From: Thiohalobacter sp.
GTDB taxonomy: Bacteria; Pseudomonadota; Gammaproteobacteria; DSM-19610
Assembly (NCBI GenBank): GCA_026984835.1
Contig: JALSRI010000158.1
Coordinates: forward strand, 1-45,417
Length of the DNA stretch: 45,417 nucleotides
Direction: 5' to 3'
Made by a program: the position numbers and the translations under genes. Of this stretch, positions 1 to 5,665 are shown piece after piece; positions within the stretch are counted from its first letter, which is position 1; every line of letters starts with the position of its first letter. The notes beneath the pieces were generated by a model, which was given only the letters and a program-made list of their open reading frames with translations, had not been told where the DNA came from and searched no databases.

Positions 1-97
1 TCTTTCTCGCGGTCCTCTGTAGTTTTTTTGTTTCTGTGTTATTGCGATGTATCTTATCTAGTATTGATAGATACTCTTGTTCTGTTGCGTTGTACAT
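1..97 (-). CDS. Third cassette gene, 5' part only (unknown)
   Basis: On the minus strand an open frame begins with ATG at 97-95, 26 bases inside the cassette boundary, and stays open for 32 codons to the window edge. The peptide begins MYNATEQEYLSILDKIHRNN and is polar and lysine/arginine-rich with no signal peptide. Its position relative to the attC site at 118-193 is that of a cassette gene start. The family cannot be named from this fragment. Confidence 0.5.
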   Translation of the reverse strand, partial: MYNATEQEYLSILDKIHRNNTETKKLQRTARK

Positions 98-117
98 TCA
101 GAATCTAATCCTATTGC

Positions 118-193
118 GTATAACGTTTCGCCTCAGCAGCCGCCGAAGGAGCGCCAGCGACGAAGGCGGTCGGCTGGAGGCGTTTGTTAGGGC
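118..193 (-). other. attC recombination site closing cassette 2
   Basis: On the plus strand the site runs from GTATAAC (118-124) to GTTAGGGC (186-193), about 76 bp. Between these cores the arms are imperfectly complementary: CGCCTC near the left core pairs with GAGGCG near the right core, and the inner GCCGCC pairs with GGCGGT/CGGC. Unpaired bases break the pairing, as expected of attC. GTTAGGGC is the complement of the GCCCTAAC at 790-797 that starts the same cassette. The TAA stop of the cassette 2 gene (187-189) lies inside the core. Confidence 0.85.
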
Positions 194-786
194 TCATTTT
201 CAAAGAATTTCTTGCCCCGCTCAAAAACAGATCGGGCCAACTGTTCATTACCAGCCATATCAGCGATAGCAATGGTCGTAAGTATTCCAAATGAATTAGC
301 AGTATCTAGCGCGTCTTTTTTCTCTTCATCCGTATGATTCGGGGTGATTGAATCTGCAGTATTCTGTCGCACCGCCTGATAAAACCCACTGTGTGTAAAG
401 CTATTCATTGTTTTCCACGAAGTTTCTTTCACGTGGGACAAGGTACCACCATTAAAAGCTTCATGTGTTTCAAGATCCGCAATCAGCTCTCCAATCGTTT
501 TTATCTTATCGCTCTTGAACTGTTCGACTTCTTTATCCGAAGCCGAATACATTAACCATACGCCGCGCACATAGGCTTCGAACAGCAATCTAACTAAAGC
601 GGCAGCAGAGCCGGATAGAGACTTGGCTGTAAGGAGCACTATCGCCTTTTGATGTTCCAGCGCAGTCGCGAGGCAACCTGCAGCCAGCCTAATTCGATCC
701 TTCGACGGTACCTCTAGCCCATCAATAGACGAATCAATCCATTGGATTAGCTGCTCTGATTGCTGTATTTCTTGTGCGATATTCAT
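187..786 (-). CDS. Integron cassette 2 protein, DUF6988-like, unknown function
   Basis: A 199-residue soluble protein, largely alpha-helical by composition, with no signal peptide or membrane segment. It starts at ATG 786, only three bases after the cassette core GTTAGGGC, and its TAA stop is inside the attC site, so gene and cassette are coextensive. The middle has a conserved-looking stretch with AALVRLLFEAYVRGVW (about residues 62-77), and the C-terminal half carries a HSGFYQAV segment. It resembles the DUF6988/DUF5677-like helical proteins often found in integron cassettes and near phage or defence genes. That assignment is from memory of the pattern, and no activity can be inferred. Expression probably depends on an upstream cassette promoter, because there is almost no 5' leader. 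Confidence 0.72.
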   Translation of the reverse strand: MNIAQEIQQSEQLIQWIDSSIDGLEVPSKDRIRLAAGCLATALEHQKAIVLLTAKSLSGSAAALVRLLFEAYVRGVWLMYSASDKEVEQFKSDKIKTIGELIADLETHEAFNGGTLSHVKETSWKTMNSFTHSGFYQAVRQNTADSITPNHTDEEKKDALDTANSFGILTTIAIADMAGNEQLARSVFERGKKFFENEP

Positions 787-789
787 TGA

Positions 790-862
790 GCCCTAACGAC
801 CAAGCTGTGCGGCGCAAACGAAGCGCAGCGTAGTTTGCGTCCGAACGAGCGCCTTGTTATGC
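790..862 (-). other. attC recombination site closing cassette 1
   Basis: About 73 bp from GCCCTAAC (790-797) to GTTATGC (856-862). The inner arms CGCAAAC (813-819) and GTTTGCG (833-839) are perfectly complementary. Outward, GGCGCAAAC pairs with the complement of GTTTGCGTCC with one unpaired base, and GCT...GG pairs further out. This is the folded-hairpin, extrahelical-base layout of attC. The TAA stop of the cassette 1 gene (857-859) is inside GTTATGC. Confidence 0.88.
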
Positions 863-1300
863 GATACCAGACTTGGAAATAAGAACACTAAGCACACCAT
901 TCAAATAATAAAATAGCGCAATATATGAAACGACAAGAAAAATGCCAGGCTTAGATATCACAAGCTCTCTAAGTATACGCATTCTATGTTCCTGTGATTT
1001 ATTCCGAAGAAACTCGATTGTTGACATGTAGTCTACTTTAGGCCAAATAGCGGCTCCTGCCGGAAACACGATAGCTTGTAACCCGTAGAAAAATGATTGC
1101 ACGAGTAAAATAATGAACAAGAGAACAAACGGAATCCCATGTATCCACCCTGATTGAGCGCTTGCGTACTTTGCTAATCCCATCGCTAATGTCGCAGCTC
1201 CTAAATATGACAGCAGTTTGAAATTCGCCTCTATAATTTCCTTGGAAATCAGAAGTATTATTAATCGATTGATGGCTTCCATAGTTTCAACTAATTTCAC
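857..1300 (-). CDS. Integron cassette 1 membrane protein, unknown function
   Basis: A 147-residue protein with about three hydrophobic segments (roughly residues 28-48, 55-78 and 115-140), probably an inner-membrane protein. The only start that follows the cassette core directly is GTG at 1300, one base after the 1301-1307 GTTATGC. An in-frame ATG six codons later (1282) is the alternative, and an ATG inside GTTATGC is out of frame. The stop codon is in the attC core. Being nearest to attI, it would be the best-expressed cassette gene and possibly the most recently gained. The family is not recognised. Confidence 0.7.
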   Translation of the reverse strand: MKLVETMEAINRLIILLISKEIIEANFKLLSYLGAATLAMGLAKYASAQSGWIHGIPFVLLFIILLVQSFFYGLQAIVFPAGAAIWPKVDYMSTIEFLRNKSQEHRMRILRELVISKPGIFLVVSYIALFYYLNGVLSVLISKSGIA

Positions 1301-1410
1301 GCATAACTACTGATTATCAAGCACGCGCCGCATAACACGAAACACCTGGCACATGCGGGTTAGTACGCCGAATCGGGCGATAGTGCGGCGGCTGCGGGTT
1401 ATCATGCCTG
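1301..1410 (-). other. attI region with cassette insertion point
   Basis: Read on the minus strand from the integrase side, this contains two copies of GTTATGC (1336-1330 and 1307-1301). Either could be the attI/cassette 1 junction, because both are complementary to the core of the cassette 1 attC. Farther toward intI are two direct copies of TAACCCGCA (complement of 1354-1362 and 1393-1401), 39 bp apart. These are plausible accessory integrase-binding repeats, as known in attI1. No attC-like fold is seen here, which fits attI. Confidence 0.6.
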
Positions 1411-1453
1411 TTCCTCTTTGGTCATCCGTTTGGCAGGCGGCTGTTTCCTCAAC

Positions 1454-1482
1454 CGTTTAGCGGTTTTTACCCATCTTGTCAA
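1454..1482 (-). promoter_or_regulatory. Candidate cassette promoter Pc
   Basis: On the minus strand a perfect -35 TTGACA (1482-1477) is followed 17 bases later by TAAACG (1459-1454), a weak -10. It lies between intI and attI and fires toward the cassettes, the usual place for Pc. The -10 overlaps a small hairpin (AACCG/CGGTT, 1451-1465). The -35 is convincing; the -10 is not. Confidence 0.4.
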
Positions 1483-1709: not shown

Positions 1710-2672
1710 ATGGCGGGCAAGCGCCTGATGGACCAGGTGCGCGACAGGATTCGCACCCTGCATTACAGCCGGAAGACGGAACATTCCTATAGCTACTGGA
1801 TTCGCTCCTTCATCCGCTTTCATGGATACGCTCACCCTTCCAGCCTGGGAGCCCGGGATGTCGCCCGGTTTCTGACCTGGCTGGCCGTCGAACGGCGCGT
1901 CTCTGCGGCGACGCAGAATCAGGCGTTCAATGCCATCCTTTTCCTTTACAAGCGCGTCCTGGACCTGCCCCTGGGGAAGATCGAGGGTGTGGAGCGGGCG
2001 AAGCGGGGCCGGCGGCTGCCGGTGGTTTTCGAGCGGCGCGAGATGGCTGCCGTGCTGGGTGGCATGAAGCTGCCTTATCTGTTGATGGCTTCGCTGATGT
2101 ACGGGAGCGGGCTGCGGACGATGGAGACGTTGCGGTTGCGCCTGAAGGATATCGACTTCGACCGGCGTTGCATCATGGTGCGGGCAGGCAAGGGAGACAA
2201 GGATCGGGTCACGGTGCTGCCCGACACGCTGATCCCGGATATCGAGCGGGCCATGGAGCGGGTGCGGATTCTGCACGAGGAGGATCTGGCCGCGGGCTTT
2301 GGTGAGGTATCGTTGCCCTATGCCCTTGCGCGCAAGTACCCGGGCGAGTCCAGAAGTCTGCACTGGCAGTTTCTGTTCGCCGCCGACCGGCGCTCCGTCG
2401 ATCCGCGCTCCGGGCGGGAGAAGCGCCATCATGTTTTCGAGAGCACCCTGCAGCGGGCGGTGAAGCAGGCGGTCCGGGCGGCGGGCATCCGCAAGATGGC
2501 GTCATGCCATACCTTCCGGCATTCCTTTGCGACGCATCTGCTGGAGGACGGGTACGACATCCGTACCGTTCAGGAGTTGCTGGGGCACAAGGATGTGAAG
2601 ACGACGCAGATTTACACCCATGTGCTGAACAGGGGCGGGGGTGCGGTGAGGAGTCCGCTGGGTGGGTTGTAG
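1710..2672 (+). CDS. intI: Integron integrase IntI (tyrosine recombinase)
   Basis: A 320-residue site-specific recombinase that joins attI and attC sites and so inserts, excises and reorders cassettes. The N-terminal SAM-like DNA-binding domain (about residues 5-90) carries the [13 protein letters not shown] signature. The catalytic domain shows [13 protein letters not shown] (catalytic Arg136), [28 protein letters not shown] and the nucleophile Tyr302. Between them is the extra IntI-specific segment ([17 protein letters not shown], then [11 protein letters not shown]) that separates integron integrases from XerC/D. The frame stays open further upstream, but ATG 1710 is chosen because GGAGGA (1697-1702) lies seven bases before it and the LexA box lies just upstream. 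It reads away from the cassettes. The gene looks intact and is probably functional. Confidence 0.95.
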
Positions 2673-3027: not shown

Positions 3028-3060
3028 GGCTGGGCCCTGGGGTGGTTGGGGGTATTTTAG

Positions 3061-3234
3061 ACCACAAAGGCGCGCAAAGGCGCTCGAAGGAAAAAAACCG
3101 CGAGGTGAAAAGACGGCAACCGCGAGGGACGCGAAGGGAAAACAGTCATACCATTCATTCCTTCGCGTCCTTCGCGTCCTTCGCGGTTCTATTTTTCCGC
3201 TCTTCCTTCGTGCGCCTTCGTGCGCCTTTGTGGT
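3061..3234. repeat. Nested inverted repeats of GGCGCACGAAGG/ACGCGAAGG type
   Basis: The outer arms 3061-3090 and 3205-3234 are inverted copies (27 of 30 match). The inner arms 3119-3137 and 3169-3187 are a second inverted pair (18 of 19 match). Each arm is itself a short tandem of CGAAGG-type units. This intergenic repeat style recurs in many proteobacterial and environmental genomes. RNA across it would fold into a long two-level stem. It sits between ccoI and ccoS and might act on transcript stability or termination. Confidence 0.75.
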
Positions 3235-3244
3235 TCTCCCCACC

Positions 3245-5665
3245 TCACCCCCGCCGCAGCCGCAACGCGTTGAGCACCACGACCAGGGAGCTGGTGGACA
3301 TGCCGAGGGCGGCCATCCAGGGGGCGACCCAGCCGGCGGCGGCCAGGGGCACGGCGACGGCGTTGTAGACCACGGCCCAGGCCAGGTTCTGGCGGATGAT
3401 TCCGAGGCTGCGGCGCGCCATGCGCACGGCGTCGGCCAGGTGCGGCAGCCGTTCCGAGAGCAGGATCATGTCGGCGCTGGCGTGGGCGAGCTGGGTGCCG
3501 CCGCCCATGGCCAGGGAGACCTGGGCGCCGGCCAGCACCGGGGCGTCGTTGACGCCGTCGCCGACCATGGCGACCACGGCGCCACCCTGCTGCAGTTCGC
3601 GGATGCGGGCCAGCTTGTCGTCGGGGGTGCAGCGCGAGCGACTGTGCTCGATACCCAGTTGGCGCGCCACCCCGGCCACCGCCGCGTCGCCGTCGCCGGA
3701 CAGCAGTTCCACTTCCAGGCCCTGAGCGCGCAGGACGGCGATGGCGTCCGCCGCACCGTCGCGGATGCGGTCGGCGAACGACAGCGCCGCCAGCCAGCCG
3801 TTCTCGTCGCCGAGCCAGACGCGGGTGTGGCCCGGTTCGTCGGCCAGCGCCGGCAGCGCCTGGCCATGCGCTTCGGCGACGTACGACGCCGTGCCGATGC
3901 GGTAGCGGCGGCCCTCGATGCGGCCTTCCAGCCCCTGCCCCGCCACCGCCGTCACGCCCGCCGCGCGCGGCGCGTCCGGGCAGGCACAAGCCAGGGCGCG
4001 GGCGACGGGGTGTTCGGAGGACCGTTCCAGGGAGGCCGCCAGGCAGCGCACCCGCGCTTCCGGCTGGTCGCCCAGCAGCGTCACGGCCTCCAGCCGCAGG
4101 CGTCCCTCGGTGAGGGTGCCGGTCTTGTCGAAGATCATGTGGGTGGCGCGCGCCAGGGTCTCCAGGGCGTGGCCGCGGGTGGTGAGCACGCCCAGCCGGG
4201 TGAGCGCGCCGGTGGCGGCGGTGAGCGCCGCGGGCGTGGCCAGCGACAGGGCGCAGGGGCAGGTCACCACCAGCACCGACAGGGTGATGGCGAAGGCGTG
4301 CGCGGGGTCGGCCTGCCACCAGTACAGGGCCACGCCGGCGGCCAGCGCCAGCAGCGCCAGCACGAACCCGCCGGCCACGCGGTCGGCCAGCTTCGCCACC
4401 GAGGGTTTCTCGGTCTGGGCGCGGTCGAGCAGGCGCAGGATGGACGACAGCACGGTCTCCTCGCCGACCTTCTCCACCTGCATGACCAGCGGGCTGTCGG
4501 TGTTGACCGTGCCGCCCACCAGCGCCGCGCCGGGGCCGCGCGGCAGCGGCAGGCTCTCGCCGGTGAGCAGCGACTCGTCGACCGCGCTTTCGCCTTCCAG
4601 CACCCGGCCGTCCGCCGGGATGCTCTCGCCGGGACGCACCAGCACGCGGTCGCCGGGGCCGAGCTCGGCCACCGGCACGCGTTCCTCGCCGGCGTCGGTG
4701 AACCGCGTGGCGGTGGCCGGCAGCAGCCGCACCAGTTCCTCGGCGGCCTGGCCGGCGCGGTGGCGGGCGCCCATTTCCAGGAAGCGGCCGGTCAGCAGGA
4801 AGAAGGTGAACATGGTCACCGAGTCGAAGTAGATCTCGCCCTCGCCCGTGATCGTATGCCAGGCGCTGGCGGCGAAGGCGGCGCCGATGGCCAGCGCCAC
4901 CGGCACGTCCATGCCGGCCTGGCGGCGCTTGAGGTCGCGCCAGGCGCTCACGAAGAAGGGCTGCGCCGAATAGACCACCACGGGCGCGGCGATGAGCAGG
5001 CTGACCCAGCGCAGGAAGTTGCGCAGGCCGGCGTCCATGCCTTCGTAGGCGCCGCCGTACAGCGCCACCGCCAGCATCATGACCTGCGCCATGCCCAGCG
5101 CGGCCACCGCCAGGCGGCGCAGGGCGCGGCGGCGCTCTTCCTTGTAGAGCTGTTCCTGGCGGCCGGGGTCGAAGGGGTGGGCGTGGTAGCCGATGGCGCG
5201 GATGGCTTCCAGGATGTCGCTGAGCTTGATGCGGCTGTTGTCCCACACCAGGCGCGCGCGGTGGGTGGCGTAGTTGACCTGGAACTCCAGTACGCCGGGC
5301 AGGCTCTTAACGTGGCGTTCGTTCAACCATACGCAGGCGGCGCACTGGATGCCTTCCAGGATCAGGGCCGCCTCGCGCCTGTCGCCCGCTTCCACGCGCA
5401 CGAAGCTGGCCTGCAAATCGTCGCGGTCGTAGAGGCGCATGTCGGCCAGTTCTTCCGGCACCAGTTCCTCGCCGCGCGACGCGGGCGCGGTGCGGTGGCG
5501 GTAGAAGTCGGCAAGGCCGCCCTCGACGATGGCGCGCGCCACCGCCTGGCAGCCGCGGCAGCACATGGGGCGCTTCTCGCCGTCGATGTCGACGTCGAGC
5601 TCGACGCCGGGCGGCACGGGCAGGCCGCAGTGGAAGCAGGGGGTGTTGTCGTCTCGTGTCGTCAA
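3245..5665 (-). CDS. ccoI: Copper-exporting P1B-type ATPase CcoI (FixI)
   Basis: An 806-residue inner-membrane ATPase that supplies copper for the CuB centre of cbb3 oxidase. The N-terminus has a cysteine-rich segment (Cys10, Cys13, Cys35-Cys36, Cys39) typical of FixI/CcoI. A heavy-metal-associated domain follows with CAAC at 108-111. The core has the CPC metal site ([15 protein letters not shown]), the phosphorylation motif DKTGTLTEG and the hinge [14 protein letters not shown]. The start is TTG 5665, overlapping the TGA stop of ccoH by four bases; no in-frame ATG precedes the first cysteine motif. Length and domain order are normal for the family. The downstream ccoS is 217 bases away. Confidence 0.93.

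Follow-up and report, generated by a model that had tools for sequence, protein, structure and literature searches.

A cassette array beside an integron integrase gene in Thiohalobacter sp. carries a candidate phage-defence gene of the DUF6988 family

Introduction

In class 1 integrons, attI1 contains the small open reading frames ORF-11 and ORF-17, which have Shine-Dalgarno sequences and whose translation can be coupled to that of the first cassette (PMC8876359). ORF-11 spans attI1 and its stop codon is supplied by the incoming cassette (PMC8876359). Integron cassettes are also a source of antiphage genes: at least 16 of 179 cassettes in V. cholerae (88 expressed) and 9 of the 57 tested in V. 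parahaemolyticus are antiphage, according to the available passages of one review (PMC12409362). DefensePredictor (Science 2026, PMC13092281) newly implicated five Pfam DUFs, including DUF6988, in defence via 42 validated units. The available passages of that article (PMC13092281) make this implication at the level of the family; they do not name the DUF6988 unit, nor do they say whether the domain alone is needed. That integrons store defence genes, and that DUF6988 is linked to defence, has already been published. Our literature search returned no report of DUF6988 as an integron cassette and nothing on the related model PDC-S52.

Here we describe a stretch of DNA from Thiohalobacter sp. (the window; 45,417 nucleotides), which is an entire contig (C158, JALSRI010000158.1) of assembly GCA_026984835.1 (2.87 Mb, 259 contigs). 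An earlier sequence-only reading had proposed that its first 1,300 bases hold two integron cassettes, with a third at the edge.

Results

The left end of the contig is an integron cassette array

An integron is located at the left end of the contig, with its cassettes on the minus strand and intI on the plus strand. Its parts are as follows.

1710 to 2672, plus strand: intI, the integron integrase gene (TIGR02249, 458.6 bits; probable start at 1710)
1301 to 1307, minus strand: attI core GTTATGC, with the crossover between 1307 and 1306
797 to 1306, minus strand: cassette 1, 510 bases, bounded by crossover points
791 to 862, minus strand: attC1, the site of cassette 1, placed by its cores, the fold filter and near-identical attC sites on plasmid pTBH13 and in genome G313
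124 to 796, minus strand: cassette 2, 673 bases, bounded by crossover points
118 to 192, minus strand: attC2, the site of cassette 2, placed by its cores, the fold filter and model R2 (35.2 bits; this site is in the R2 training set)
1 to 123, minus strand: third cassette, ended by the contig edge, with core GTTATAC at 124-118 and an ATG at 97

The attC model R2 has a hand-written structure and was trained on both attC sites of the window and on sites from loci L032, L036, L045, L048, L052, L058, L060, L069 and L070; the sites of contig C128 and of loci L062 and L096 were excluded from training. Model R1 contained no base pairs and was set aside.

The TIGR02249 score, compared with a cut-off of 265, identifies the intI product as an integron-type tyrosine integrase, and it is the only one of the five genome-wide matches above the cut-off. 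The ATG at 1710 is the likely start because the match begins at position 1725. The left core of attC1, GCATAAC, is complementary to the start of cassette 1 (GTTATGC), and the left core of attC2, CCCTAAC, is complementary to GTTAGGG at 797-791. In the third cassette, the open reading frame from the ATG at 97 has 32 codons and is open through base 1; the partial protein resembles the start of colicin/pyocin immunity proteins at a sub-threshold level (Pfam Colicin_Pyocin, E 0.0026, 18.2 bits, cut-off 21.2). When the window end was compared with the other contigs, the matches were 17 bases or shorter and the third cassette gained no extension.

In the 45 kb window, the fold-based attC filter marked two places only, attC1 and attC2 (attC2 in the opposite orientation only), and it gave 0 matches in 58,735 bases of shuffled sequence. 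Both sites form unbranched hairpins, which are not clearly stronger than those of dinucleotide shuffles (single-strand folding on the two strands, z -1.10 and +0.42 for attC1, and -1.25 and -1.70 for attC2). Because the plain folding of these sites is not clearly better than that of shuffles, the case for an integron rests on the cores, the spacing and the gene-length cassettes. A differently scored attC filter was noisier and missed attC2, and was dropped. The lengths of the open reading frames in cassette 1 (147 codons) and cassette 2 (199 codons) were reached in 1 and 0 of 5000 shuffles, respectively. The GC content is 35-47% in the cassettes, 63% in intI and 68% in the remaining contig; the cassette values lie below that of the contig, as for imported genes. 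A type II toxin-antitoxin pair was sought within cassettes 1 and 2 and was absent: each contains a single gene. The region corresponds to the part of an integron cassette array that lies nearest attI, and the proposal of two cassettes with a third at the edge was borne out by the cores, the attC sites, the open reading frames and the integrase. Elsewhere in the window, positions 3060-3240 are a dispersed repeat, which is found on both strands and in many contigs; most of the 71 genome matches fall there.

A leader open reading frame ends at the attI crossover

Between intI and cassette 1, the following features were found.

1678 to 1693: LexA-type box CTG-N10-CAG ahead of intI, from the sequence motif
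1477 to 1482, minus strand: candidate -35 element TTGACA of the cassette promoter Pc, a perfect hexamer
1402 to 1425, minus strand: mini-ORF of 7 codons upstream of the leader ORF, which it overlaps via ATGA
1307 to 1405, minus strand: attI leader ORF of 32 codons, with Shine-Dalgarno-like GAGGA before its ATG and stop codon TAG

Because a LexA-type box precedes intI, expression of the integrase is probably SOS-controlled. At the Pc candidate, the hexamer 17 bases beyond the -35 element is a poor match to the -10 consensus, and a consensus promoter scan did not report this candidate. The final base of the leader stop codon is the G of the attI core, and the ORF therefore ends exactly at the crossover. 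The GTG start of the cassette 1 gene lies 6 bases past this end and is not preceded by a Shine-Dalgarno sequence. Because the leader ORF has its own Shine-Dalgarno sequence and ends 6 bases before a gene that has none, a hand-over of ribosomes is likely. From this anatomy, the leader ORF probably hands ribosomes to the first inserted gene, and a candidate built-in translation dock is thus now described in an attI other than attI1. In a family relative (G001, locus L036), the region between intI and the first cassette has, as judged by eye, a small ORF that runs through the attI core and whose ATG is preceded by GGAG. From this locus, attI leader ORFs may be common here.

Two further attI-type sites in the genome

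Contig C91 contains a copy of the attI leader (L009 3136-3522; 87% identity over 387 bases) and has no intI. Next to the core, 248 of 260 bases are identical (95%), and the leader ORF is intact with two amino-acid changes. The contig stops at the attI core GTTAGGC, at the same crossover point as in the attI of the window. A search of the genome with the attC pattern TAAC...GTTAGGC found the C91 site only (control matches, 7). The attI-like site that heads the array on contig C128 is built differently: it shares 47 of 62 bases with the intI-linked attI of the family relative G002, a value reached by 0 of 20,000 shuffles, but only 33 of 62 with the attI of G001 and 15 of 62 with that of the window. 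One integrase might serve all three sites, with SOS-induced loading and expression of defence cassettes. We regard this proposal as unlikely, and the main caution for the reading of three attI sites is the assembly contamination of 4.33%. If it is true, the self-terminating leader ORF would be a ready translation dock for incoming cassettes at several chromosomal addresses.

Cassette 2 encodes a DUF6988 protein

The gene of cassette 2 was identified by profile matches.

187 to 786, minus strand: cassette 2 gene, encoding a 199 aa DUF6988 / PDC-S52 protein, a candidate phage-defence protein

The protein matched DUF6988 (PF22491) with 107.8 bits (cut-off 27, E 6.9e-31). It also matched PDC-S52 of PADLOC (E 4.1e-32, model positions 1-200 of 211), a library that gives no cut-off and a model that has no description. 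Both matches extend along nearly the whole length. We take PDC to mean "phage defence candidate". A weaker match was to DUF5677 (E 2.6e-8). The sequence-only reading had described a helical soluble protein, and the structure model agrees on the helices: it is all-helical, with a pLDDT of 69.6 that falls below 50 at residues 93-148, including H132. The same reading had stated that neither cassette protein has a known activity and that such cassettes may be defence genes. The former statement still describes cassette 1 and is outdated for cassette 2, because of the DUF6988 / PDC-S52 match and because DUF6988 has been implicated in defence; the latter is supported for cassette 2 at the level of the family.

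A scan with exact peptide patterns gave four close relatives (45-64% identity) from metagenome-assembled genomes titled Planctomycetota, Nitrospinota, Caenispirillum and Muproteobacteria. Stop codons in the frames of close relatives had been named beforehand as an argument against functional cassettes; the frames are intact in all four relatives of cassette 2. The pN values against these relatives are 0.22-0.38 and the pS values 0.73-0.86, the latter near or at saturation. Because pN is below pS, the protein is under constraint. The close clade of five (44-64% identity to cassette 2) spans several phyla. The family as a whole is diverse, with 19-34% identity between cassette 2 and 11 of the 15 members aligned. 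More distant members are sparse: matches to the protein are present in 8 of 369 genomes of the class and matches to the DUF6988 Pfam model in 13 of 398 genomes of the phylum (own genome included in both counts), and DUF6988 occurs in 30 of the 72,556 records of the plasmid collection.

In an alignment of 16 members, R66, W77, A82, H132 and G134 are invariant, all of them present in cassette 2, and H45, L52, S60, E70 and R74 are nearly invariant. From this conservation, an active or binding site would most plausibly involve H45, R66/E70 and H132-x-G134. A fold search of PDB and BFVD with the model gave no match at E <= 0.001, and a profile search of PDB sequences gave 0 matches at E <= 10. The list of structural matches is led by rhodopsins and designed bundles. 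Against PHROGs, only single weak matches were obtained; phage records contained no match for cassette 2, and viral contigs none for the protein of either cassette.

Two further arrangements were observed at DUF6988 loci. In a Planctomycetota genome (L023 5001-6314), DUF6988 is joined in one protein to a C-terminal region for which four transmembrane segments are predicted. In the Nitrospinota and Muproteobacteria genomes (L024 4335-4990 and L026 1-470), long palindrome-rich repeats that end near GTTAGG lie directly before the DUF6988 genes.

DUF6988 genes occur as cassette cargo elsewhere

We compared 29 other DUF6988 loci: 17 from the genome search (duplicates merged, own locus excluded), 4 from the contig scan and 8 of the 30 plasmid records. 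By model R2, attC sites lie beside or around the DUF6988 gene in three of the 29 (G576, G725 and G463). The DUF6988 gene of G725 (L070/L092) is flanked by attC sites at 2144-2069 and 1477-1415, and L070 contains six attC sites. In G576 (L062), the gene lies between sites at 2203-2123 (E 6.4e-4) and 1484-1422 (E 3.6e-4), and the left core of the right site is complementary to the cassette start. In G463 (L069), the DUF6988 stop codon is followed by an attC, and the adjacent stretch, in which two small membrane proteins are encoded, ends in another attC; the left boundary is unclear. The other 26 loci gave no attC at E <= 0.1, or one weak distant match (L023, E 0.23), and several DUF6988 loci adjoin ordinary genes. 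The flanks of most genome-search loci are about 1.5 kb, and the fold filter recovered attC in only 13 of 30 intI loci (with 4 matches in shuffled intI loci). Because the flanks are short and the sensitivity of the attC searches is low, a locus where no attC was found carries little weight. Run on 34 DUF6988 locus files, the fold filter produced 12 matches, of which 3 are the attC sites of L069 and L070; the other 9 lie inside genes and were dismissed as attC. Among the eight plasmid records viewed, one has the DUF6988 gene near a Phd/VapC pair, and in another (X. citri) the gene overlaps one that is HEPN/Toprim-associated.

Because attC sites lie beside DUF6988 in three of the 29 other loci, DUF6988 is a recurrent cassette cargo. 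Its recurrence in four genomes (our own and three others) would offer a one-gene unit whose function is easy to test.

The protein of cassette 1 is an orphan

The gene of cassette 1 is as follows.

857 to 1300, minus strand: cassette 1 gene, encoding a 147 aa membrane protein, with a GTG start (alternative ATG at 1282)

The sequence-only reading had proposed three membrane helices. Two transmembrane segments, from residues 56 and 119, are clear, and a third, in the helix at 20-47, is only probable from a weak single-sequence model (pLDDT 65.6). The protein had no match at E <= 1 in Pfam, PADLOC or NCBIfam and none in the plasmid collection, and exact peptide patterns gave no match in viral and genome contigs. 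At E <= 0.001, only its own copy was found, both among 186 genomes and among 398 genomes. Weak matches (E <= 1) occur in 45 of 397 other genomes. The best of these (L077, E 0.00179) has two stop codons inside the matched stretch, and L078 (E 0.00517, an ORF of 127 aa) was judged unrelated by eye. The protein is an orphan, without a significant relative in the searches made. The search of other arrays that had been suggested for both proteins was productive for the cassette 2 family, at the three loci described above, and returned no significant relative for cassette 1. Our best guess is that cassette 1 is a second small defence or stress cassette.

The attC sites point to a shared cassette pool

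Three attC sites of the Thiolapillus brandeum plasmid pTBH13 (NZ_AP012275.1) share 97-98% identity with attC1 (97% over 68 bases), and the first attC of G313 shares 97% with it over 73 bases. In the G313 integron (L032), the attC sites at 3042-3114 and 3525-3592 are 97% and 88% identical to attC1, and the protein of the third cassette has a beginning that, by eye, resembles that of a DUF262 (GmrSD-type) protein. On pTBH13, the sites with 97-98% identity come after a RelE/HigA pair, an FRG-domain gene and a gene of the C-GCAxxG-C-C family. The plasmid array also contains HicA/HicB and TIR and caspase genes, with more divergent attC sites: identity to attC1 is 76% for the site that follows the TIR and caspase genes, and the site behind HicA/HicB matches part of attC2 at 79% identity.

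Beyond the window, model R2 found at least three attC sites in the same genome, all on contig C128 (150 of 3715 first-look candidates scored), with genome-wide E values of 4.6e-5, 0.017 and 0.22 and contig E values from 3.6e-7 to 0.0017. This array (L106 9900-12755), which has no intI, encodes a 232 aa protein, a 281 aa protein, a ClpX-type zinc-finger protein and a HigB-like/HTH pair. The 281 aa protein has an RHSVAH stretch, HEPN-like by eye, and no Pfam match. The HigB-like toxin scores 22.2 bits, below the cut-off of 27, and has an HTH partner. PADLOC reported nothing on the C128 array besides HTH-type matches. A weak attC1-like match on contig C1 was discarded, as R2 finds no site on that contig. 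Because toxin-antitoxin and defence-like genes are present on pTBH13 and C128, the cassette pool includes such genes, and this lineage is tied to that shared pool.

Discussion

We consider it reasonably probable that, in this integron, the leader couples translation to the first inserted gene and cassette 2 is a one-gene antiphage DUF6988 cassette; cassette 1 encodes an orphan membrane protein. According to this reading, IntI would take up promoterless cassettes at attI, and Pc in the attI leader region would drive transcription through cassette 1 and then cassette 2. The 32-codon leader, from its position, would pass ribosomes to the first-inserted gene. As judged from its family, the DUF6988 protein would most likely be inactive until phage infection and would then block the growth of the phage, probably through an arrest of the infected cell. 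Cassette 2 is thus a candidate phage-defence gene, supported by sequence at the level of the family. Because of the link through DUF6988, it stands above the Vibrio base rate for antiphage cassettes.

Another explanation is that cassette 2 encodes a HEPN-type ribonuclease or toxin, DUF6988 being a divergent HEPN fold that cuts RNA upon phage infection. The DUF5677 match is consistent with this idea (E 2.6e-8 in cassette 2, and 11 of 16 members at E <= 1), as are a weak HEPN_AbiV match in 2 of 16 DUF6988 members (best 0.072) and the overlap with a HEPN/Toprim-associated gene in X. citri. In comparisons with the cassette 2 model, AbiV 9bj5 and 4nqf are among the Foldseek matches, and chains 4nqf and 8xeh, both titled HEPN, and 1ufb, which we take to be HEPN, gave Z scores of 6.2-6.9. 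However, these Z scores fall in what the tool states to be helical-bundle noise, the profile search of PDB gave 0 matches, and the model has a pLDDT below 50 in the region of H132 (93-148). Moreover, the RX4-6H motif is not conserved in the 16-member alignment, where the invariant R66 and H132 lie on different helices. Because the motif is not conserved, we rejected membership of cassette 2 in the HEPN superfamily, and a HEPN-type activity is a tentative and somewhat doubtful proposal. We judge it far less probable that the two cassettes form one defence system, with DUF6988 as its sensor or cytosolic component and the membrane protein as its effector. This arrangement is suggested by the Planctomycetota fusion protein, by a gene with three transmembrane segments 18 bases after DUF6988 in L025, by a following gene with two such segments in L016 and by the two small membrane proteins of the next cassette in L069. 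However, the four neighbouring transmembrane proteins scanned have no Pfam match in common, most of 23 DUF6988 loci have no transmembrane neighbour, and in the window each gene has a cassette of its own, with attC sites that differ from each other. A membrane partner as a general rule for DUF6988 was not supported by the 23 loci.

The defence link of the family might also fail here, and cassettes 1 and 2 would then be unrelated non-defence cargo, for stress or metabolism, or unexpressed passengers. The orphan status of cassette 1 and the diversity of the family (19-34% identity to 11 of 15 members) are in keeping with this, and most of the tested Vibrio cassettes were not antiphage in the available passages (PMC12409362). 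In contrast, DUF6988 is named among the newly implicated defence domains in the passages on DefensePredictor (PMC13092281), and many toxin-antitoxin and defence-like genes are found in the plasmid array whose sites include near-copies of attC1. Non-defence cargo seems to us on the unlikely side, and an antiphage role for cassette 2 in a leader-coupled integron is the reading that we prefer.

The array resembles the antiphage cassettes of chromosomal and mobile integrons (Darracq 2025, Kieffer 2025, Getz; PMC12409362), which, in the passages available, likewise form attI-attC arrays in which small cassettes hold a single gene of unknown function and in some cases act against phages. In contrast to those cassettes, the cassettes of the window are known from sequence alone, and the same passages mention no DUF6988 cassette (PMC12409362). 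Three attC sites of pTBH13 are near-identical (97-98%) to attC1, whereas the genes of the cassettes differ and the remaining pTBH13 sites are less alike. At the attI, the leader resembles ORF-11 and ORF-17 of class 1 integrons, as these are described in the available passages, in being a small ORF preceded by a Shine-Dalgarno sequence (PMC8876359). In contrast to ORF-11, which has 11 codons in that description (PMC8876359), the leader of the window has 32 codons, and its stop codon lies wholly within attI, so that none is needed from the cassette.
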